39,370 nucleotides of DNA. It comes from Chloroflexota bacterium (GTDB taxonomy: Bacteria; Chloroflexota; Dehalococcoidia; SZUA-161; SpSt-899). Each line of letters begins with the position of its first letter. Positions within the stretch are counted from its first letter, which is position 1. A program made the position numbers and the translations under genes. Location of the stretch: NCBI GenBank assembly GCA_013203045.1, contig JABMQN010000060.1:1-39370 (forward strand), in the 5' to 3' direction. The notes beneath the pieces were generated by a model. It did not search any database. It was not told the origin of the DNA and was given only the letters and a program-made list of their open reading frames with translations. Positions 2,627 through 10,588 of the stretch are shown here, one piece after another.

Positions 2627-2830
2627 ATGGCAACGCATGAATTCAAAACCACGGCAGCACATCCGATCGTAGTAAAGGACCGTCCTGAAGGATTGATCAT
2701 CAGACTCGAAGACACTCATCACAAGAAAGGATGGGAAGAAGCTCTGAGTTGGGAAGAATGGGATGCTCTAGTTTCCTGGGTGGATTGGCGCAGGCACGTT
2801 ATAAAAATTGAGTCACAAAAGAAAAAGTAA
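2627..2830 (+). CDS. Hypothetical protein (67 aa) next to the left attachment site
   Basis: ATG 2627 is preceded by AGGGGGTG at good spacing and by a near-consensus promoter. The 67-residue product is Trp-rich in its second half (WEEALSWEEWDALVSWVDWRR) and ends in a Lys-rich tail; it has no signal peptide or membrane segment and I do not recognise a family. Its stop at 2828-2830 lies 17 bases before attL, so it belongs to the chromosome flank. Before insertion its 3' end would have faced the 3' end of tRNA-Glu. A GTG at 2832 directly after its stop is in frame with the recombinase, so re-initiation is conceivable. Confidence 0.65.
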   Translation: MATHEFKTTAAHPIVVKDRPEGLIIRLEDTHHKKGWEEALSWEEWDALVSWVDWRRHVIKIESQKKK

Positions 2831-2847
2831 TGTGATAAACTGCCAAT

Positions 2848-2897
2848 TAGCTTCGGGGTTACGTTCAAAAAAATGGTGGCCCCAAGGGAATTCGAAT
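2848..2897. repeat. attL: 50-bp direct repeat, copy of the tRNA-Glu 3' end
   Basis: Identical over 50 bases to 10487-10536. It contains the CCA end and T-arm of tRNA-Glu on the minus strand plus 26 bases of downstream DNA including a run of seven A (T on the tRNA strand). Identity stops at 2898 (T versus C in the tRNA). Confidence 0.93.
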
Positions 2898-2915
2898 TCC
2901 AGAACTAGCTTCAAA

Positions 2916-3887
2916 ATGCTTAACAAAATGACGGTCACCGAACTCGCAGAGGTAAGCGGATTTAGTAAATCATTTATCTCCCAAGTTAAGCACGGGAAAA
3001 GGCCACCATCTGAAAGACTGTTACAGATACTTGATGAACTGACTTCATCTAGTGGGGAGTCAAGAACACGACAGGAAGGCCAAAGAGCAATTGAACTATT
3101 CCTAAAATCAAGACGTGAAGGTATTTCACAATCAAGCTTGGACTTCTACAGTAAATATTTAACCAAAGCAATTCCTGTTATTAGCTTATCTCCCACACCT
3201 AGAAAAATATCTAGTTATCTTGATGGGCTATCTTGTTCTGTTGGTGGGAAACATGCTTATTTCAGGGCCATTTCAGTTTTCTTCAACTGGTTATATAGCC
3301 CCAAATCTGGATTCCCCTTTCAGCAGAAGGATAATCCAATAAAGCTAATCGACCCACCAAAGAAACCAAAACTGATACTACCAACCTTGACGAAAGAGCA
3401 AGTGAACCTACTGATATCCAAGGTTAAATGTGTGAGGGACGCAGCAATCATCTCTCTATTTACTGAATCTGGACTAAGGCTGTCCGAACTTATGAATATT
3501 AAGCCAGAAGATATTGATTGGGATAATAGAATTATCAGGATTATGGGTAAAGGTAATAAAGAGGGTTATGCTGCATTTGGAGCCTTAAGTGAGAAATACC
3601 TAAAGGAATGGTTAGCCGAATATCAGCCTGGTTCAGGTGAGTTGATTTGGAATATTGGATTCTGGGGTATTAAAGCGATGTTGCATAGCTTGGGAATAGA
3701 AACTGGTCTACAATGCAATCCCCACACATTCCGCAGGACCTTTGCCTGTCTTCTTCGTAAAGCAGGAGTAGACACCATGACCATCAAGGACTTGGGGAGA
3801 TGGGAAAGCTTAGAGATGGTACAGAGATATACTAGGTCAGTTACTTTTCATGATAGTCTGAAGTTGTATAAAGCACCACTCTCATAA
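2916..3887 (+). CDS. int: Tyrosine recombinase/integrase with N-terminal HTH (catalytic part of split gene)
   Basis: Site-specific recombinase that inserts and excises the element at tRNA-Glu. From the ATG at 2916 the product has 323 residues: a Cro/Xre-like helix-turn-helix at about 5-43 (TVTELAEVSGFSKSFISQVK), an Arm/SAM-like core-binding domain to about 150, then the XerC/D-type catalytic domain. Visible active-site residues are Arg188 (SGLRLSEL), a Lys in MGKGNK, His270 and Arg273 (HTFRR), Trp296 in the usual His/Trp position (GRW), and nucleophile Tyr305 (QRYTRS). No Shine-Dalgarno precedes 2916 or the next ATG at 2928. The frame is open upstream through attL to a TTG at 2808; in an excised circle it would instead continue to a GTG at 10447 at the right end. 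The chromosomal start is therefore uncertain. Confidence 0.9.
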   Translation: MLNKMTVTELAEVSGFSKSFISQVKHGKRPPSERLLQILDELTSSSGESRTRQEGQRAIELFLKSRREGISQSSLDFYSKYLTKAIPVISLSPTPRKISSYLDGLSCSVGGKHAYFRAISVFFNWLYSPKSGFPFQQKDNPIKLIDPPKKPKLILPTLTKEQVNLLISKVKCVRDAAIISLFTESGLRLSELMNIKPEDIDWDNRIIRIMGKGNKEGYAAFGALSEKYLKEWLAEYQPGSGELIWNIGFWGIKAMLHSLGIETGLQCNPHTFRRTFACLLRKAGVDTMTIKDLGRWESLEMVQRYTRSVTFHDSLKLYKAPLS

Positions 3888-3965
3888 ACAATCGCCTTTA
3901 CTTATACCGACAACTGGGTTATTATTGCTGCACTATCCTAATGCGTCGTTATAGAGGAGGCCGCT

Positions 3966-4442
3966 ATGTTCTGCACAATTTGTGGTAATCCCGTGTCTGA
4001 GAGTGCTGCTTTTTGCGCCAAGTGTGGACATCGGCTTGCCAAAGTAACACAAACCGCAAAAGCCCCAATTCCAGTAGTGAATGACAAAGAGCTACAAGCC
4101 GCAGCGAACGCCTTAAAAGCAAAGAGCCTTGAGAAGAGTAACCCTGAAGCTGCCATCAGTCAATATCGTAAGTCTATAGCAGCTCTCAGAGACTTGTCAC
4201 AAGAGTCCCCGAACCAACCGCAGCAAGGAAACTTCCCTTATCTGTTCAATAGACTCACTATGCTGATGGAGAAGCAGAAGAAGTATAAAAAGGCACTTGA
4301 TGAAACTGGAGTATATGAGAGCCTACCACGCAGACAAAGACACGCAGGAAAGAAATCGGATATCACGGCTATCGACAATCGAAAGTTAAGATTGATAAGC
4401 AAACAACGAAAATTACGTTTGGCCGACAAGGCAAGAAAATAA
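3966..4442 (+). CDS. Zinc-ribbon protein, element cargo
   Basis: A 158-residue protein opening with a double-CxxC zinc ribbon (MFCTICGNPVSESAAFCAKCGHRL, Cys at 3, 6, 17 and 20), the type found at the start of many bacterial regulatory or membrane-associated proteins. The middle (about 37-105) is helical and resembles a tetratricopeptide-like arrangement (AISQYRKSIAALRDL, KQKKYKKALDETGVYESLP). The tail is very basic (RKLRLISKQRKLRLADKARK) and could bind nucleic acid. AGAGGAGG stands before the ATG. No membrane segment. It follows the recombinase by 78 bases. Function unknown. Confidence 0.75.
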   Translation: MFCTICGNPVSESAAFCAKCGHRLAKVTQTAKAPIPVVNDKELQAAANALKAKSLEKSNPEAAISQYRKSIAALRDLSQESPNQPQQGNFPYLFNRLTMLMEKQKKYKKALDETGVYESLPRRQRHAGKKSDITAIDNRKLRLISKQRKLRLADKARK

Positions 4443-4465
4443 CCGACCATTAGATGGTGAGACGG

Positions 4466-4494
4466 GTACCCCCCCATGCCGGGGTACTTCCCTT
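4466..4494 (+). terminator. Probable rho-independent terminator after the zinc-ribbon gene
   Basis: GTACCCC (4466-4472) pairs with GGGGTAC (4481-4487), followed by TTCCCTTTT. The T tract is interrupted, so strength is uncertain. Confidence 0.5.
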
Positions 4495-4674
4495 TTGGGG
4501 TTCTTAATAAGGCTGTCCAAGGCCTAATTCCAGATATACCAGTTTTTTGAAATCTAGGGTGAAGTTGGATTGACGGATAGAGCCTAGAATGGAGCAGGGC
4601 AACTGGTGTTCACACATTGATACACCTTACCCTCGCTGTCCCATTGCAAATTTTTTATAATTCTTCCCAATATC

Positions 4675-5418
4675 TCAATGCACAGTCACTGTGCCATCCT
4701 TTGCTATGTCATAGGCTTGACGAAGCGATTCCTCTGGTGAAATGTCCAGATAGTCGTCTATACTGTACGCACCACCACCAGCGGTGACATTATGAACTTC
4801 TTCATAGGTATCAACCTCAAAATAATCAGCATCTAATTGAGAAACTCCAGCATCTGCCATCAAAACAGCCACCGCAAGTCTAACGTTCTTCAGCTCGGTA
4901 TTGTATGCTTCCTCAGGCACTTCACTTTCATTACTATCACTACTATCACCGTCAATCAACCAACTATCATCAACCTTAGTGAGAAGAAAAGTAGCTGACG
5001 TATTGCCACTAACTTCTCCTTCGATATTAATCTGGTAGTCATAGCTAACATTTACTTTGGCATCATGCTCACCCTGTTCAACTACCTCAGTTGATATATT
5101 GGAGAACTTAAAGGCCATTCCCTCAGGTGGTTCCTCAGAATCCTCTAAACCGAATTCTTCCGCATAGTCCTCGGTGCAGAAACTTGCCATTTTCTCTGGA
5201 TTCATATCCTGTATAGCTGCAAAAAAGCCTCTTACCGTGTCCTCAGGGCTAGATGCATCATTGGCAATAGTTTGGGTAGGTGTACTCGTAGACATTGATG
5301 TTTCATTTGCAGTAGGAATATCCGTAGGAGTCGGTGTATCCCCACCATTGTCACACCCAACGACACTCATTAAAACCGATATCAATACCACACAAACAAA
5401 TAGTAATGTTTTTCTCAT
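4675..5418 (-). CDS. Putative lipoprotein with NTF2-like domain, element cargo
   Basis: A 247-residue protein from the ATG at 5418, which follows GGAGGG. It has a lipoprotein signal (MRK, hydrophobic core, lipobox SVVGC) and a Thr/Pro/Ser-rich linker to about residue 48. The next part, DTVRGFFAAIQDMNPEKMASFCTEDYAEEF, is typical of NTF2-like (SnoaL/DUF4878-type) domains in surface lipoproteins, and the domain closes with LTKVDDSWLIDGD near residue 155. The last 75 residues form a second part with a type-IV-pilin-like phrase (AYNTELKNVRLAVAVLMADAG). It is probably displayed on the cell surface by the element; role unknown. Confidence 0.75.
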   Translation of the reverse strand: MRKTLLFVCVVLISVLMSVVGCDNGGDTPTPTDIPTANETSMSTSTPTQTIANDASSPEDTVRGFFAAIQDMNPEKMASFCTEDYAEEFGLEDSEEPPEGMAFKFSNISTEVVEQGEHDAKVNVSYDYQINIEGEVSGNTSATFLLTKVDDSWLIDGDSSDSNESEVPEEAYNTELKNVRLAVAVLMADAGVSQLDADYFEVDTYEEVHNVTAGGGAYSIDDYLDISPEESLRQAYDIAKDGTVTVH

Positions 5419-5573
5419 AATTCCCTCCAAAGACCGATGTGATCATGCATTCTATCTTGTCCACAAGATTCCTAACGTATCATAGACAGTCAAACACACG
5501 TACCACAACGGTGTAAGCCCGTATATTTGTGTGAGTGAAACAGTGGTGTGGGAACGTGATTAGCAATTGAGAA

Positions 5574-5654
5574 GGTTAGCCAGTGTTAGCATGGTTAGGG
5601 TAAAAACATATATATATATTAATTCTAGGCTAACCATCCTAACCTACGTTAACC
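5574..5654. repeat. Mirrored iteron array around an AT-rich core (candidate origin)
   Basis: Left arm: GGTTAG (5574), TGTTAG (5584) and GGTTAG (5593), 10 and 9 bases apart. Right arm is the mirror image: CTAACC (5630), CTAACC (5639) and TTAACC (5649), 9 and 10 bases apart. Aligned as reverse complements the two 30-base arms agree at 22 positions. Between them, 5601-5629 is almost pure A/T with an (AT)n stretch. Helically phased repeats flanking a meltable core are the usual look of a plasmid replication origin; recombinase arm sites are another possibility. Confidence 0.65.
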
Positions 5655-5678
5655 TTTTGGTCGCTGGTTTGGTGGGGA

Positions 5679-5969
5679 TTAGGGGTGTAGGACTTTTGTC
5701 TTTACCTCGCGTTTCAATTTCAAAACATGTCGTTGGAGTTCACGCATGGTTTTATGTATCTCTTTCTCAATGGACTCTAGTTCTTCCTGTAAATTGATAA
5801 GGTCTACACCAGATGATGGAGTTGTAAAATATCCTTCCTCAGTGAAAACGAATCCTTCTTCAAATCCTAATTTTTCAATGGGCCTAATCTCATCGCGTTT
5901 CTTCTGGGCTTCGACTAATAAATTTGCATATTTCAAACTTAATACGTAGTACTTTTCATCATATTCCAT
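5679..5969 (-). CDS. Coiled-coil hypothetical protein, element cargo
   Basis: A 96-residue protein from the ATG at 5969, chosen because GGTGGAGG lies 9 bases upstream; a longer TTG start at 6005 has no such site. Sequence begins MEYDEKYYVLSLKYANLL. It is highly charged and helical, and the last 40 residues (LINLQEELESIEKEIHKTMR onward) form a clear coiled coil with a basic end. No Cys, no membrane segment. It lies next to the mirrored iteron array, so a role in replication or copy control is possible, but I do not recognise the family. Confidence 0.6.
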   Translation of the reverse strand: MEYDEKYYVLSLKYANLLVEAQKKRDEIRPIEKLGFEEGFVFTEEGYFTTPSSGVDLINLQEELESIEKEIHKTMRELQRHVLKLKREVKTKVLHP

Positions 5970-6005
5970 CGTATGATGCCTCCACCCAAAAATTTTCGTA
6001 AGCAA

Positions 6006-6265
6006 TTCTATAACATTAATTATGCTATAGCAACCATATCCGATAAACTGTTGGAAAACCTATGTGCAGTCATGCTGTAGTCGCTCACATCATATACACA
6101 TAGAACACCATTGCCCCCCCATACCCGATAGCTTCCCCTCAGAGAATCACATATGGCTTGCTAAATCCCGATTTAGGATGCAGCTCATTTTTGAAACGCA
6201 ACCTGCTTGACTAGCTGTTGAGTGTGGGTGTAGGATAGGGGCACTTAAGAAATAGCAATGCTCAG
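6006..6265. other. Intergenic stretch with a short palindrome
   Basis: No gene is supported here. CTAAATC-CC-GATTTAG at 6161-6176 is a perfect inverted repeat, a possible protein-binding site upstream of the promoter at 6266. A run of seven or eight C lies near 6113-6120. Confidence 0.3.
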
Positions 6266-6294
6266 TTGTCAACCAATACTTAGTGGCTTATGTT
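6266..6294 (+). promoter_or_regulatory. Probable promoter of the CARDB-type lipoprotein gene
   Basis: TTGTCA (6266-6271), 17-nt spacer, TATGTT (6289-6294). Leader of about 48 nt to the ATG at 6349. Confidence 0.4.
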
Positions 6295-6348
6295 GCGCTT
6301 TTGTAATCTAATAATTGTTGGGCAGGCAATAACGAATCGGAGGTGGAA

Positions 6349-6867
6349 ATGAGAAAGGCAATAGTTACTTTGGCGCTTCTGCTAATACCGGTTTTCGCTC
6401 TCGGCATGTTGGCATGTAGCGATAATAATGATGACGATTTGATGAGATCAAGTCAGTCATTCACCATTGATGATGGAGACCTTACATTGGAGATCAGTGA
6501 CCTCAAAGTCGATCCTAATGCAAAGCGTTCATGGCGTATAGGAGAAAAGAACTTCAATGTGACTGCAAGCGTAAGAAACGTTGGCACTACGGCTGGGACT
6601 TATAGCGCCGTACTAGATGTCGGCAGCAAACACAAAACAAAGCACACAGAAGAAGTATTTCTTGATTCCGGCGCTAACGAAACGGTGAACTTCTTGATTG
6701 TTAAAAAGGACCCTGGAATCTATCAGCTTGAGCTAGGCGAATTGAAGAATGAGTTTAAAATCGGGACCAAAGCGTATACTATCCATACCATCCTCGGATT
6801 GATTTATGCAATCGTACTATTGTCATGGCTAGTAAGGTTCATAATAAAATCTCGTGCTACAAGATAG
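6349..6867 (+). CDS. Lipoprotein with CARDB-like domain and C-terminal membrane helix
   Basis: A 172-residue protein. The ATG at 6349 is preferred because CGGAGG sits 5 bases upstream; a GTG two codons earlier overlaps that site. It has a lipoprotein signal with lipobox GMLAC, an acidic linker, then an immunoglobulin-like beta domain: ISDLKVDPNAKRSWRIGEKN, VTASVRNVGTTAGTYSAVLD, as in CARDB domains of surface proteins. Residues 144-165 (TILGLIYAIVLLSWLVRFII) are a membrane helix followed by KSRATR. Being tethered at both ends is unusual; the loop would face outward. Function unknown. Confidence 0.75.
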   Translation: MRKAIVTLALLLIPVFALGMLACSDNNDDDLMRSSQSFTIDDGDLTLEISDLKVDPNAKRSWRIGEKNFNVTASVRNVGTTAGTYSAVLDVGSKHKTKHTEEVFLDSGANETVNFLIVKKDPGIYQLELGELKNEFKIGTKAYTIHTILGLIYAIVLLSWLVRFIIKSRATR

Positions 6868-6934
6868 GGCCAATTCAAACACAGGGGAATCTAACAACTC
6901 CTTACACGCCGACTGCCAGGACAGCCTCACACAG

Positions 6935-6965
6935 TTGCCCTATCATCCCCCAATAGGCGTATAAT
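6935..6965 (+). promoter_or_regulatory. Promoter of the 87-aa gene, first copy of a repeated -10 motif
   Basis: TATAAT at 6960-6965 within GGCGTATAATGCTGTCACA (6956-6974), which is repeated exactly at 7337-7355. TTGCCC at 6935-6940 is the best -35 but leaves a long 19-nt spacer. Confidence 0.45.
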
Positions 6966-7012
6966 GCTGTCACAAACAATACCGTTCGTAGTCTCAAGTG
7001 GAGGTACAGTAA

Positions 7013-7276
7013 ATGGCGGTTTCATTAAACGATGAACAGACGGATAAGCTGGCTGACTTGATGCTTGAATTGCAAGACTTGCAAATTGAGATCAATGCCA
7101 TTGGGGCTAATAAGACAACTTTGACAATACATGAAAGGGCAGGTATCAAAGATAAGATAAGGGAATGGCTTAAAATAGCCCAGAAGATTGCAAATGAACT
7201 CGGTCCATCGGAGTTTAACGTGGAAGCCAAAGCGGGATTTCCCCCAAGTATCTCGATAGGATTCACGTGGACATAG
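7013..7276 (+). CDS. Small helical hypothetical protein (87 aa), element cargo
   Basis: ATG 7013 is preceded by GGAGG at 8 bases and by a TATAAT promoter. The product is acidic to neutral and mostly helical (LNDEQTDKLADLMLELQDLQ, then HERAGIKDKIREWLKIAQKI) with a short beta-rich tail (FNVEAKAGFPPSISIGFTWT). No Cys, no membrane segment and no family recognised. Regular helical heptads and the good ribosome site support a real gene. Confidence 0.65.
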   Translation: MAVSLNDEQTDKLADLMLELQDLQIEINAIGANKTTLTIHERAGIKDKIREWLKIAQKIANELGPSEFNVEAKAGFPPSISIGFTWT

Positions 7277-7317
7277 TATCATAGGTGTGTTTTCCGTATC
7301 TGCGTGGCAACCATTGA

Positions 7318-7346
7318 TTGTCCGTATGTTCTAAAGGGCGTATAAT
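7318..7346 (+). promoter_or_regulatory. Orphan promoter, second copy of the repeated -10 motif
   Basis: TTGTCC (7318-7323), 17-nt spacer, TATAAT (7341-7346), inside the 19-base sequence shared with 6956-6974. No open reading frame follows on this strand before the gene at 7538, which is on the other strand. Confidence 0.5.
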
Positions 7347-7352
7347 GCTGTC

Positions 7353-7512
7353 ACACATGTAGGATAGCTCAGCTTTGATTGGCCTATCATCTGGGGTGGA
7401 TTATACGGAACGTTCGCCCGCTCGAACATTCAGTATGGCTATCTTCTATACATGAGATGGTTCCCTCGGAGCGAGGATTTGTGGCATGAAAAAACCGCCC
7501 GGAAGCGGTTCG
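7353..7512 (+). ncRNA. Candidate small structured RNA
   Basis: A transcript from the promoter at 7318-7346 would start near 7353 and contain no gene, but several hairpins: GAACGTTCG against CGAACATTC around 7408-7431, CCTCG-GAG-CGAGG at 7464-7476, and AACCGC against GCGGTT at 7493-7510. It would end antisense to the 3' flank of the gene at 7538. This is an inference from promoter plus structure only. Confidence 0.3.
7489..7512 (-). terminator. Rho-independent terminator of the 2-TM protein gene
   Basis: On the minus strand AACCGC (7510-7505) pairs with GCGGTT (7498-7493), running into a T tract ending at 7489. It lies 26-49 bases after the stop at 7538. Confidence 0.7.
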
Positions 7513-7537
7513 CTATAACTTTAGTTCTTGTTTTGAT

Positions 7538-8098
7538 TTATTGTCTTATTTGTATATGATCCCCTAGTTTCAAACTAAAATCTATCACAGCTTTCCTTGA
7601 AGGCCAAGGTTCTTCATCCACCCATGCAAAAAGTTGTACTTCTTTCTCCCCGGATGATCTGTAACTAGAAGTATCAAAATAAATGTTTGTTAAAAAACCT
7701 TTGCCACGATCAGGTGATAGCCTTAAATTCTCAACGGGAATTGGCTTCTTCCTACCTATTTTTAACTCCAATGTCTCTACAATTATATCTTCATTGGCTT
7801 GTATATTCACGCCCAATCTCAACATACCATTTTCATCAAAAGAATATCCATCCATTTTTACATTTATAATCGCTGAAGAAATCGGGGGTAAAGCTCTGCT
7901 ATATAAAATAATGAATGTCAATATGATAAGTGTAGGAAGGAATATTAACGGTAGGAAATTCATATATCCTTCCCACCATTGATAATATTCAAGTATTGCT
8001 GTGGCGATTGTAGCAATGACTGTTTGTAACGCCAATGCAATACCAAATGTTCGAGACAATGCCCTTTTCGCACGTTTGCTCTTAGAGTACCTTGCCAT
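7538..8098 (-). CDS. Two-TM membrane protein with extracytoplasmic domain, element cargo
   Basis: A 186-residue protein with a basic N-terminus (MARYSKSKRAKRALSR), two membrane helices at about 18-37 and 47-67, then a beta-rich domain of about 115 residues (GYSFDENGMLRLGVNIQANE, DIIVETLELKIGRKKPIPVE, FDTSSYRSSGEKEVQLFAWV) facing the outside if the N-terminus is inside. I do not recognise the family. The ribosome site before the ATG at 8098 is weak (TAGG). A terminator follows directly, so it is transcribed alone or as the last gene of its unit. Confidence 0.65.
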   Translation of the reverse strand: MARYSKSKRAKRALSRTFGIALALQTVIATIATAILEYYQWWEGYMNFLPLIFLPTLIILTFIILYSRALPPISSAIINVKMDGYSFDENGMLRLGVNIQANEDIIVETLELKIGRKKPIPVENLRLSPDRGKGFLTNIYFDTSSYRSSGEKEVQLFAWVDEEPWPSRKAVIDFSLKLGDHIQIRQ

Positions 8099-8353
8099 GC
8101 GCCTATTCTACCACTTACAAGTTTATCGGGCACTCTCACCAATCGAAGGGCAAATTTACCCTTTATCCCTGAAATCCGTGCCACATACGGCAAACGCTCT
8201 ACGGGCTATCCATGTCACCGTTCATCTATGGCCTATCCATACACCACTAAAGCATCACCCTAAGCATATCAGTTTCACCCAATGTACCAAGCAGTTCATA
8301 TAAGTGTTCACATTTAGCTTCAAACCCCGCTGATCCGTCTACTATGCGCGCAT
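8099..8353. other. Intergenic stretch without a supported gene
   Basis: It lies between the 2-TM gene and the terminator of the rep operon. GGCTATCCAT and GGCCTATCCAT recur near 8206 and 8231. Open frames on either strand lack ribosome sites. It presumably holds the promoter of the 2-TM gene, which I could not place with confidence. Confidence 0.25.
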
Positions 8354-8394
8354 GAAAAACCCAGCCAAGGACAACGCATGTTCCCTAGCTGGGT
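8354..8394 (-). terminator. Rho-independent terminator of the rep operon
   Basis: On the minus strand ACCCAGC (8394-8388) pairs with GCTGGGT (8365-8359), followed by TTTTTC. It lies about 80 bases past the stop codon of the RepA-like gene. Confidence 0.6.
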
Positions 8395-8472
8395 CCTTCA
8401 ATGCCTATCTTACAGCACCTTCAAAAACTCACGTTCGGGGTGTCTAAAGAGAGAGTAGTAGATAGATATAGA

Positions 8473-9654
8473 TTAGTTTTCTTCACACACACCCCCTAGC
8501 TGAGTTTTTCTAATTCTAACCACTTTCTTCCTCTTCGCTGGTTTTCGTGTGAACCGTTGGGTTTCTGTCTGATCACGCCCCCTAGCTGACTTTCCTGGCG
8601 TTTCCCACATGATCTCTCTATCAGTGAGTACCTTCTCAAGCTCAGTAAGGTAGTTTTCATCTGCTTGTTTTTTCCGTTTGCGGTTAAGCAGATAACTAAA
8701 TGGCTCCCCCGGAGGAGTTGTGACGACCTTTCGTTCAATCAACTCTTCAACGCCCATCTTGTTATCTTTCTTGGTATAAAACGCTGCCGTGCTGTTTATC
8801 TTACTAGCTTTAATGGCCTCATCTTCACTGAAAAGAGGGAACAGGTCCTTAGCTATCTTTGACGGTGGAATAACCATCGGAGAGATTTCTTTCAACGACG
8901 CAGGCCCTTTTCCATAAGCTTCCTCTTCTATTTCAACAAAAACATCCTTAGCTGCCGCCGGTATCGCACACCTTTTCGGTTTTGTAATCAGCACAAACCT
9001 GCTTGTCTTAGGATGTTCTGATATCTTCTTTATCATCAGCCCAGTATCACAGGCTTGCCCGACTATCGATCCGTGGCCCCTAACAACACTTACCATTTCT
9101 GATTCTTTCAATTGAGCCATACTATACTCAGCGACAAGTTTCTTCGCATGTGCCGCAATCATGATAGTGCATTCTGGGACTTCATCCAAAATCCTATTAA
9201 GGTCATCCCGCATGGCTATTCCTGTTTTATCACTATTCTCTTCCATCCCTTCTCGACCACCAGGGAGACATGCCAATACACTGTCGAACCGAATGAAAAC
9301 AGGCTTCACCTCTTTAATGACCTTAAACAGTTTGTTAAAATCCTCTTTTCTCCCAAATCTGAATCCCTCCATCGATCTTACTGTAATTGGTAACTCTTCC
9401 CATGACTTGTACCCTAAGCCTTGAGAAAACCTCTCTAAATGAATAGTGAGGTCCTTATAGGGTGTTTCCTCATCTATCATAAGCACAGGCCCTTGTTTGA
9501 CCTTCTTGCCAAAAAACAAATTGCCTGAAGCGACACACACAGCTATCCAACAACCTAGGATAGTCTTGAAACCGCCTTCCGTGTTTGTATCCATCACTTT
9601 GTGCCCAATCGGCATCCAATCCTCAACCAACCATTCTCTCTGATCCAGTTTCAT
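8473..9654 (-). CDS. RepA-like hexameric helicase/ATPase (AAA_25 type)
   Basis: A 393-residue protein that probably drives replication of the element. It resembles RSF1010 RepA/AAA_25 RecA-fold ATPases: a P-loop-like NTEGGFKT (24-31) with the Lys-Thr kept but the first Gly replaced, VLMIDEE (58-63), a Walker B-like PVFIRFDS with Asp124, and a TIMIAAHAKK segment near 163-172 where the family has its His/sensor motif. The tail after residue 300 is very basic. The ATG at 9654 follows GAGGAGA; a TTG four codons earlier is less likely. Its start overlaps the end of the upstream small gene by 32 bases, which suggests translational coupling. Confidence 0.75.
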   Translation of the reverse strand: MKLDQREWLVEDWMPIGHKVMDTNTEGGFKTILGCWIAVCVASGNLFFGKKVKQGPVLMIDEETPYKDLTIHLERFSQGLGYKSWEELPITVRSMEGFRFGRKEDFNKLFKVIKEVKPVFIRFDSVLACLPGGREGMEENSDKTGIAMRDDLNRILDEVPECTIMIAAHAKKLVAEYSMAQLKESEMVSVVRGHGSIVGQACDTGLMIKKISEHPKTSRFVLITKPKRCAIPAAAKDVFVEIEEEAYGKGPASLKEISPMVIPPSKIAKDLFPLFSEDEAIKASKINSTAAFYTKKDNKMGVEELIERKVVTTPPGEPFSYLLNRKRKKQADENYLTELEKVLTDREIMWETPGKSARGRDQTETQRFTRKPAKRKKVVRIRKTQLGGVCEEN

Positions 9655-9802
9655 TATTCTCCTCAATAAATTCGTATTTCTTATCCAACCGTATCAAAGA
9701 CAACGCTACCCTCGGCAGCACACATGTCTCAATACGCATGTTATACAGGGGACAACACGCCCCTATACAGTCTCTAAACCCACCCAATGGGCACTTTCTC
9801 AT
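9623..9802 (-). CDS. Small Cys-rich protein (59 aa), first gene of rep operon
   Basis: The ATG at 9802 has a perfect GGAGG six bases upstream, so it is preferred over an in-frame GTG at 9871. The product starts MRKCPLGGFRDCIGACCPLY, with Cys at 4, 12, 16 and 17 and one more in ETCVL: a compact metal- or cluster-binding knuckle. The second half is charged. Its 3' end overlaps the RepA-like gene by 32 bases, so the two are one operon under the consensus promoter at 9992-10020. A copy-control or accessory replication role is a guess from position. Confidence 0.65.
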   Translation of the reverse strand: MRKCPLGGFRDCIGACCPLYNMRIETCVLPRVALSLIRLDKKYEFIEENNETGSERMVG

Positions 9803-9991
9803 CAATAGCCTCCATTCGATTATGTCCCCTAATTTTCTGCTGTTTGCTACGTGAATCCTTCCACTTTTCACCTACCTAATATAGATTTAAAGCACAATAC
9901 ATCGCCCGGACACTGAGATGAAATAGGTCAATGAACCGTGCTTTTCTTTCTGCGGATATGAGGATTTGAGGGTATTTTTTCTACACATTGT

Positions 9992-10020
9992 ATTATACCA
10001 TATTTTCGAGTTTTTGTCAA
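9992..10020 (-). promoter_or_regulatory. Perfect consensus sigma70 promoter of the rep operon
   Basis: On the minus strand TTGACA (10020-10015), 17-nt spacer, TATAAT (9997-9992): both boxes are exact. Predicted start near 9985 leaves a leader of about 180 nt to the ATG at 9802, room for an antisense RNA or leader control. Confidence 0.75.
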
Positions 10021-10037
10021 CCCCCTATTTATTAGGT

Positions 10038-10090
10038 TTATAGCTATAACTAATGAGTTTATATAGCATGCTTAACATGCTGAGCATGCT
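10038..10090. promoter_or_regulatory. Operator-like palindromes between two divergent promoters
   Basis: TTATAGCTATAA at 10038-10049 is a perfect 12-base palindrome. Then AGCATGCT (10065-10072), ACATGCT (10075-10081) and AGCATGCT (10083-10090) stand in a row, ending two bases before the -35 of the rightward promoter. This is the arrangement expected for a regulator controlling both the rep operon and the HTH-recombinase transcript. Confidence 0.6.
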
Positions 10091-10092
10091 AC

Positions 10093-10121
10093 TTGACTTT
10101 TTAGCTACAAAGTGGTAAAAT
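10093..10121 (+). promoter_or_regulatory. Promoter of the HTH regulator gene
   Basis: TTGACT (10093-10098), 17-nt spacer, TAAAAT (10116-10121). The AGCATGCT repeats abut the -35. In the integrated state the transcript would run antisense through tRNA-Glu. Confidence 0.65.
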
Positions 10122-10141
10122 CAAAAACATGGAGGTCAGAC

Positions 10142-10447
10142 ATGTGGTTATCGCTTGAAGAAGCATCAAAAGAGCTTAAAGTCGAAAAAAGACGGATCAG
10201 GGAATTACTCAAAAATGAAAAGTTGGAAGGCCACTTCACAGGTGCAGTTGGATGGATCATTGACAAGGAAAGCGTTGATAGCTATAAGATTAATAAGAAC
10301 ATAGGTGGCAGGCCAAAGAAGCCAAAACGCCCATATCATCGAAAGCACCAACCAGAGCAAACGATAGATACTACCAGCCCATCGGATAGTCATCAGCCTA
10401 GACTACAAGAGAAAGAGGAAACCAAAGAAAAAGAAAGGGGGATATAG
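10142..10447 (+). CDS. HTH DNA-binding regulator, excisionase-like
   Basis: A 101-residue protein; the ATG at 10142 follows GGAGG by six bases, while an upstream GTG at 10112 overlaps the promoter. Residues 1-57 (MWLSLEEASKELKVEKRRIR ... GWIIDKESVDSY) form a winged-helix module of the excisionase/MerR-like HTH_17 type. The rest is low-complexity, rich in Lys, Arg, Pro and Glu. It probably binds the AGCATGCT operator and/or att DNA as regulator or excisionase. Its stop TAG overlaps a GTG (TAGTG at 10445-10449) that opens the 5' part of the recombinase frame, so in the excised circle regulator and recombinase would form one coupled operon. Confidence 0.75.
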   Translation: MWLSLEEASKELKVEKRRIRELLKNEKLEGHFTGAVGWIIDKESVDSYKINKNIGGRPKKPKRPYHRKHQPEQTIDTTSPSDSHQPRLQEKEETKEKERGI

Positions 10448-10569
10448 TGAAAAAGTTAAGCAACTCTGTTAAGCACTCAAAAGGTCTAGCTTCGGGGTTA
10501 CGTTCAAAAAAATGGTGGCCCCAAGGGAATTCGAATCCCTGTCTGCGCCTTGAAAGGGCGCCGTCCTAG
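10447..10569 (+). pseudogene. int: Detached 5' end of the recombinase gene at the right border
   Basis: GTG 10447 follows GGGGG at 5 bases and overlaps the stop of the regulator. The frame reads MKKLSNSVKHSKGLASGLRS and crosses attR. In the chromosome it then reads tRNA-Glu antisense and stops at 10567-10569. If attR and attL are recombined, the same frame continues without a stop into residue 1 of the recombinase at 2916 and on to 3887, giving a protein of 359 residues. This is inferred from frame continuity; it is a truncated coding end only in the integrated state. Confidence 0.65.
10487..10536. repeat. attR: 50-bp direct repeat overlapping tRNA-Glu
   Basis: Identical to 2848-2897. Bases 10513-10536 are the tRNA 3' end with CCA; 10487-10512 include the T-run that ends the tRNA transcript. 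Confidence 0.93.
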
Positions 10570-10588
10570 TCCCCTAGACGATGGGGCC
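10513..10588 (-). tRNA. tRNA-Glu (anticodon TTC), CCA encoded
   Basis: On the minus strand the gene starts GGCCCCATCGTCTAGGGG and ends GGGGCCACCA. The acceptor stem GGCCCC/GGGGCC, D-arm, anticodon stem with loop CTTTCAA (anticodon TTC), and T-arm with TTCGAAT are all present, 76 bases including CCA. It remains intact after integration because the element restores its 3' end. Seven T follow, a probable terminator. Confidence 0.96.

Follow-up and report, generated by a model that had tools for sequence, protein, structure and literature searches.

The 39,370-nucleotide window analysed here, contig JABMQN010000060.1 of a Chloroflexota bacterium from the class Dehalococcoidia, carries an integrative element inserted at a tRNA-Glu gene. 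The best explanation of the data as a whole, and very probably the right one, is that the element's tyrosine integrase gene (int, encoding Int) contains the element's own attachment site (attP), and that integration splits it. The start of the gene (IntN) lies at the right end of the element beside the intact tRNA, and the remainder (IntC) lies at the left end. The anatomy of such elements, the shared reading phase of the two pieces, the division of protein domains by the site and the recurrence at many tRNAs are directly visible in the window and its relatives, and splitting of the gene by integration is a strongly supported reading of these sequences.

A divided integrase frame in the window element

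The features that define the element and its integrase are as follows, with attL and attR denoting its left and right attachment sites.

2808–2897, plus strand: chromosomal and attL stretch that prolongs the IntC frame when the element is integrated, from TTG 2808, without a Shine-Dalgarno sequence
2848–2897, no strand: attL core, a copy of the last 24 tRNA-Glu bases plus 26 bases beyond, a perfect repeat with 10487–10536
2898–3887, plus strand: IntC, an HTH_3 helix-turn-helix and the tyrosine recombinase catalytic part (PF00589, E 1.9e-26; HTH_3, E 2.7e-5; 68% identical to L015; structure model)
10447–10536, plus strand: IntN, the proposed natural GTG start and first 30 int codons, through the attR core
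10487–10536, no strand: attR core, reaching into the 3' end of the intact tRNA
10513–10588, minus strand: intact tRNA-Glu(ttc), the target gene (tRNA call; ARAGORN was used for tRNAs)

The two att copies are identical at 50/50 bases, and their core consists of tRNA-Glu bases 53–76 plus 26 bases outside the tRNA. At the right end, GGGGG at 10437–10441 precedes a TAG at 10445–10447, where the stop of a regulator gene overlaps the GTG at 10447 as TAGTG. The frame that begins there is open across attR and, in the chromosome, runs antisense into tRNA-Glu to a stop at 10567 inside the tRNA. At the left end IntC reads inward, with HTH_3 preceding PF00589. The 90 bases of 10447–10536 (30 codons) and the 990 bases of 2898–3887 (329 codons and a stop) share one phase when joined via the common core, giving 359 residues from the coordinates, and the core then reads ASGLRSKKWWPQGNSN. 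An earlier note on this DNA had described this start, this junction and this antisense run into the tRNA, and the coordinates bear it out on each. It had also stated that the catalytic part lacks a Shine-Dalgarno sequence, and this agrees with the analysis, where 0/4 in-frame starts in the integrated window (2808, 2832, 2916, 2928) have one of at least 4 bases; it overlooked that the integrated frame is also open leftward through chromosomal DNA to TTG 2808, which by coincidence again gives 359 codons. Taken alone, the open frame in the window would be weak evidence; the relatives turn it into strong evidence.

The window recombinase matches PF00589 with 93.3 bits, and Pfam gives PF00589 and HTH_3 with no PF16795 match at E 0.01. 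By sequence profile only, it resembles Xer-like proteins (4a8e, 4.5e-25; 1a0p, 2e-22; 5hxy, 7.5e-20). The invariant columns of our alignment A3 include R224, K248, H306, R309, W332 and Y341, which we take to be the tyrosine recombinase catalytic set. An AlphaFold model of the window ORF (open reading frame; mean pLDDT 75.4, pTM 0.46) places the first helix at residues 29–40. Met 37, encoded at 2916, falls within this helix, where pLDDT is about 44–67, so with modest confidence an Int that started at Met 37 would have its first helix cut.

Reading phase and domain content among relatives

The recombinase's kin come mostly from Dehalococcoidia and other Chloroflexota assemblies. A profile built from 8 sequences (A1) and used for genome searches matched 42/393 genomes of the window's class and 10/400 genomes of the phylum, all 10 of them in the window's class; it matched 39/156 genomes in the order of genome G083 and 9/15 in the order of G148. 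Stretches around matches were put through one pipeline, which covered 108 loci with an int match. At 29 of these an att pair coincided at least partly with a tRNA called by ARAGORN, and at 79 it did not; many of the latter end near int or contain fragments only. Removal of two duplicates (L023 of L092, L030 of L075) left 27 non-redundant attL/attR pairs. Outside these stand L084 and L120, where repeats are present and no tRNA was called, and L016, where the contig ends within int and the attR side alone is seen. In L092 the later part of int is frameshifted, so its phase was taken against the first part.

To pass the phase test, a pair had to have an ORF that begins at a start codon preceded by a Shine-Dalgarno sequence of at least 4 bases and crosses the attR core in the recombinase's phase. 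In phase 20/27 pairs passed, compared with 4/54 off-phase frames (Fisher P 1.3e-9). That such frames are open by chance is hardly credible. A random position passes 14.2% of the time in a fixed phase and the window alone would be thin evidence, but the binomial P for 20/27 is 3.5e-12 (uncorrected for relatedness) and 12 pairs carry protein domains in their distal pieces; on the phase counts and the domain content we rejected chance.

Several observations weigh against gene splitting or limit its reach. The pairs are related, falling into 10 clusters at 60% identity, and the P values overstate independence; averaged over clusters, 6.2/10 pass in phase and 1.1/10 off phase. The strict test is failed by 7/27 pairs. 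L094 and L121 have a helix-turn-helix in phase and no good Shine-Dalgarno sequence; L152 has a helix-turn-helix ORF off phase, and its attR is 14 bp shorter than its attL, which by eye would account for the shift; L115 and L116 have a broken int; and in L128 and L157, which look conventional, stops separate att from int. Two passes are weak: L032 has 5 codons and belongs to the clade that holds L128 and L157, and L085 has a broken int. A Shine-Dalgarno start lies in the chromosomal flank at attL in 7/27 pairs, so some integrated copies could still be translated. In the window's type the helix-turn-helix is not separated from the catalytic part, which may leave Int active after integration. Viral contigs searched with the A1 profile contained no circular or unsplit copy, and the A2 search of viral contigs returned 4 distant matches (L161–L164) and no usable free or unsplit form; plasmids and phages, with the window protein as the only query, gave no such copy either. 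An exact terminal overlap of 15–300 bases was present in 0/26 whole contigs; the two ends of L150 have 26 20-mers in common, as expected from att copies near both ends.

After correcting the passes and failures of the phase test, we judge 20 pairs to be split genes on their sequences. Twelve of them (L093, L094, L112, L113, L114, L117, L118, L121, L144, L146, L150 and L154) have a distal piece that encodes a helix-turn-helix running in frame into the att core, and in these same pairs the recombinase at the other end begins after the core without a helix-turn-helix. All but L113 of these distal pieces (11/12) pass the HTH_3 Pfam cut-off. The other eight (the window, L074–L078, L092 and L149) have no distal helix-turn-helix; elements of the window's type have a comparable domain that directly follows the core and is joined to the catalytic part. 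It is strongly supported by this layout that attP would lie between protein domains in the domain-split pairs and just before the helix-turn-helix in the window's type. That attP lies within the coding sequence of int, as the earlier note proposed, finds support in the conserved phase of the relatives and, above all, in the 12 domain-split pairs. From the window the note could not have shown that the split there removes a leader only, while that of the sister type removes the helix-turn-helix.

Small helix-turn-helix regulators are common at element ends, and the distal ORFs could be separate regulators that enter att by chance, with recombinases that start independently. Once integrated, the distal piece indeed stops shortly past the core, as at 10567 in the window. 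However, the phase agreement (20/27 versus 4/54), the contiguity of a similar domain with the catalytic part in the window's type and the clade-specific repeats on both sides of the core, described below, make separate regulators very unlikely.

A further alternative is a promoter that depends on state: the circle supplies the promoter, translation of Int begins at an internal start beyond the core, and the IntN frame is a leader that contributes nothing to the function of the protein. The integrative and conjugative elements (ICEs) ICEKp1, ICEclc and ICEEc1 are known to switch promoters in this way; in ICEKp1 and ICEclc only the circular form drives int from its opposite end, transcription is affected, and the accessible part of the source describes no split int coding region (PMC13023037). 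The window does have ATG codons after the core, at 2916 and 2928. Neither has a Shine-Dalgarno sequence, 6/8 of the relatives compared lack an ATG, GTG or TTG where 2916 lies, and a helix-turn-helix that precedes the core in phase, as in 12 pairs, is left unexplained, so we consider promoter switching alone quite unlikely. As a rule for the family, translation from ATG 2916 is disfavoured, given the unconserved start, the missing Shine-Dalgarno sequence and a modelled first helix that begins upstream (modest confidence).

Among the 20 split pairs the tRNA targets are of 11 amino-acid kinds. The att core derives from the 3' part of the tRNA in 12 and from the 5' part in 8 (L093, L094, L114, L117, L118, L121, L146, L154). 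The int frame reads the tRNA antisense in 15/20 and sense in 5/20, and the intact tRNA adjoins IntN in 11/20 and IntC in 9/20. tRNA-Glu itself is read in differing frames, as QGNSN in the window and, within L016's distal piece, as GIRIP.

The integrated copies could also be dead fossils, and the pattern a relic without present role, which we regard as unlikely. Broken copies and C-terminal int scraps (L033–L038, L040, L041, L044; L085, L115, L116) and a TGA in the attL core of L074 favour it. Yet the att repeats are perfect in 15/20 split pairs, the 11 tRNA kinds suggest repeated mobility, and dN/dS is low in the one usable IntN pair (L114 versus L154: dN 0.18, dS 1.51; a second pair tried gave no usable dS). 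One-way integration would itself lead one to expect decay of integrated copies, so fossils are compatible with gene splitting. The nine scraps from L033 to L044 are short and very similar, with L033 and L040 within about 100 bp of a tRNA, and form an apparent graveyard of what would be dead elements.

A tree built quickly from 74 catalytic parts, without bootstrap, places L128, L157, L032 and L158–L160 in one long-branched clade (support 100), which with midpoint rooting adjoins one domain-split group, and neither split type is a single clade, so the tree does not fix the point at which splitting arose or was lost. On a side branch of L149, L099, L105 and L108, L149 alone has both ends; its att lies in the int frame, and no helix-turn-helix was noticed in its distal piece.

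Repeats, regulator and mobility

Further features of the window element, including copies of a short repeat near the core, are listed here.

2917–2924, minus strand: GTTAAGCA (inverted), putative arm-type site inside IntC
2985–2992, plus strand: GTTAAGCA inside IntC
8473–9666, minus strand: cargo AAA_25 ATPase (PF13481, E 3.4e-15), with a possible replication function
10069–10076, minus strand: GTTAAGCA within the inverted repeat 10064–10091, between two divergent promoter-like sites
10093–10121, plus strand: rightward promoter-like site TTGACT-17-TAAAAT, upstream of the regulator and IntN
10142–10447, plus strand: HTH_17 excisionase-like regulator (25.7 bits, just under the Pfam cut-off of 27; phrog_66 excisionase, E 4e-4)
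10455–10462, plus strand: GTTAAGCA inside IntN
10468–10475, plus strand: GTTAAGCA inside IntN

The window has six GTTAAGCA sites (2917, 2985, 8683, 10069, 10455 and 10468), a number reached by 1/100 shuffles. In the window's type, the repeat occurs with at most one mismatch on the element side of both att copies in 7/7 pairs, and the chromosomal flanks of these pairs contain one near-match (L092). Exact copies in the 7 pairs number 25 in 59.3 kb of element versus 2 in 86.9 kb outside. In L078 the IntN-side copies lie upstream of the IntN start, outside the coding part. The domain-split pairs have a different repeat, GTTCACA, which with one mismatch allowed flanks the core on both sides in 8/12, being exact in 7/8 on the IntN side and 8/8 on the IntC side; near-matches lie in a chromosomal flank of L112, L118 and L144. 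The remaining four pairs have GTTAAGCA-like repeats, not always on both sides. We infer that these clade-specific repeats are arm-type integrase sites, probably bound by Int's own helix-turn-helix.

The regulator frame is open from GTG 10112. An HTH_17-like gene lies at, or at most about 100 bases upstream of, the distal piece at 6/21 loci (the window, L076, L077, L078, L117 and L094), and 4 of these 6 genes are above the Pfam cut-off. The regulator–int arrangement of the earlier note recurs partly in relatives; its restoration by excision would follow from the proposed circle, of which the searches above found no circular or unsplit copy. Opposite the rightward promoter-like site, the weaker of the two, is a leftward one, TTGACA-17-TATAAT at 10020–9992, which matches at 12/12 positions and has TG ahead of the second hexamer. 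A promoter scan found 2 sites in the region where shuffling predicts 1.6, which is near expectation and weak. The stretch 9992–10121, with its divergent promoter-like pair and its inverted repeat containing GTTAAGCA, looks like an operator, and the position of GTTAAGCA at 10069 hints at autoregulation. Other cargo in 3966–9666 includes a zinc-ribbon protein and another that matches CARDB weakly, at 18.7 bits and under the cut-off. A search with 9 window proteins for a common cargo core matched another locus only for the AAA_25 protein (L021, weakly).

Element GC is below flank GC in 18/18 elements compared, the window's not being among them. Both flanks of the element of G083, itself a single-contig genome, in which it lies at tRNA-Lys, were matched in all 8 genomes of its genus, G083 included. 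In the single-contig genomes G189 and G211 of this genus the element is absent: roughly 0.7 kb separates the flanks, next to a tRNA-Lys that is intact, and int is missing. In the other five genomes the flanks are far apart or on different contigs. A gene in the roughly 0.7 kb beside tRNA-Lys of G189 and G211 (L177, 1034–1729) is missing at the G083 junction (L077, near 2914–2937).

The window genome has 22 recombinase matches, one of them a near-full copy with 57% identity. By eye its upstream frame resembles antisense tRNA; the tRNA call and the att-pair pipeline found neither a tRNA nor an att pair there. Action in trans is conceivable. Elsewhere, oriented L113 (6538–8921) carries att three times, with another helix-turn-helix piece at 8710 by the third copy, which looks like tandem elements on one shared tRNA-Arg. 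Oriented L093 (2919–14084) has three more att-like copies (11088, 12043 and 14030) downstream of the tRNA-Phe copy, which suggests stacked insertions. In L019 (8455–10707) the int frame runs upstream into tyrosine-recombinase-like sequence, in a 750-codon open frame across attL.

Proposed mechanism and known counterparts

In the free circle, a single gene would comprise the start and leader (in sister elements also the helix-turn-helix), the tRNA-derived core as an in-frame linker, and the rest of Int. For the window element, promoter, regulator, IntN, core and IntC would form one unit that integration cuts at the core, exchanging the 5' piece of int for chromosomal DNA and leaving the promoter, ribosome site and excisionase-like regulator at the far end beside the tRNA. 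The repeats that flank the core, mostly within coding DNA, would serve as arm sites for Int. Integration might act as a one-way switch, parting catalysis from the start or from the domain that binds the arm sites. Such circles would exist, Int would be off or down after integration, and integrated copies would be rescued in trans, excision needing an intact related integrase or weak internal initiation.

A parallel in which a switch of this kind cuts a different gene is the integration-dependent immunity of mycobacteriophages. There too attP lies inside a coding gene and works as a switch, but the gene cut is a repressor and not an integrase.

The SSV-type integrases of archaea (SSV1, SSV2, pTN3 and pT26-2) have the recombination site within int, target tRNAs and upon integration yield int(N) and int(C), of which the latter holds the catalytic domain; the accessible part of a 2021 review assigns them to PF16795 (Phage_integr_3), with one origin, and calls them exclusively archaeal (PMC8371274). 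The elements described here are like them in that attP lies within int and integration splits it, as judged from integrated copies. They differ in domain content (PF00589 with HTH_3), in their bacterial hosts, in using two att positions and tRNAs in both orientations and, for some members, in having an excisionase-like gene next to IntN. The SSV parallel drawn in the earlier note thus stands as an analogy and fails as membership, since the Pfam family differs.

In bacteria, the Myxococcus phages Mx8 and Mx9 have attP within the coding sequence of a tyrosine integrase, and integration changes the protein; in Mx8, 112 C-terminal residues are replaced by 13 and the enzyme remains active, according to the accessible parts of the sources (PMC6070905, PMC4701971). 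The likeness extends to the bacterial host, the attP inside int and the altered protein. Unlike in Mx8, attP here is at the 5' end of the frame, where the start and often a domain are removed, and the C terminus stays inside the element. Streptococcal ICEs in rumA also have att inside an integrase gene, but it encodes a serine integrase of which the C terminus alone changes (PMC4701971, in part). The accessible part of a 2026 Dehalogenimonas study treats ssrA islands, and no split int was noticed in it (PMC13390414). We found no description of a bacterial integrase split at its 5' end in the open-licence literature searched.

The best reading of these elements is an independently evolved bacterial counterpart of the archaeal 'suicidal' integrases. 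It is somewhat more probable than its contrary that a bacterial integrase lineage came to split itself independently of archaea, with attP (core and arm sites) in frame before or after the helix-turn-helix, integration as a one-way switch, spread by the integrases of incoming relatives in trans, and a core that serves as a linker tolerating many tRNA sequences, halves and frames.

For annotators, the warning is that the start of int in elements of this sort may be missing or wrongly called, and that a small helix-turn-helix ORF next to a tRNA may be part of an integrase. If the reading is true, the self-splitting strategy arose separately in bacteria, with the helix-turn-helix and catalytic parts parted by the site itself, and the persistence of suicidal integrases could be put to the test in bacteria, including one host whose genome is a single contig.

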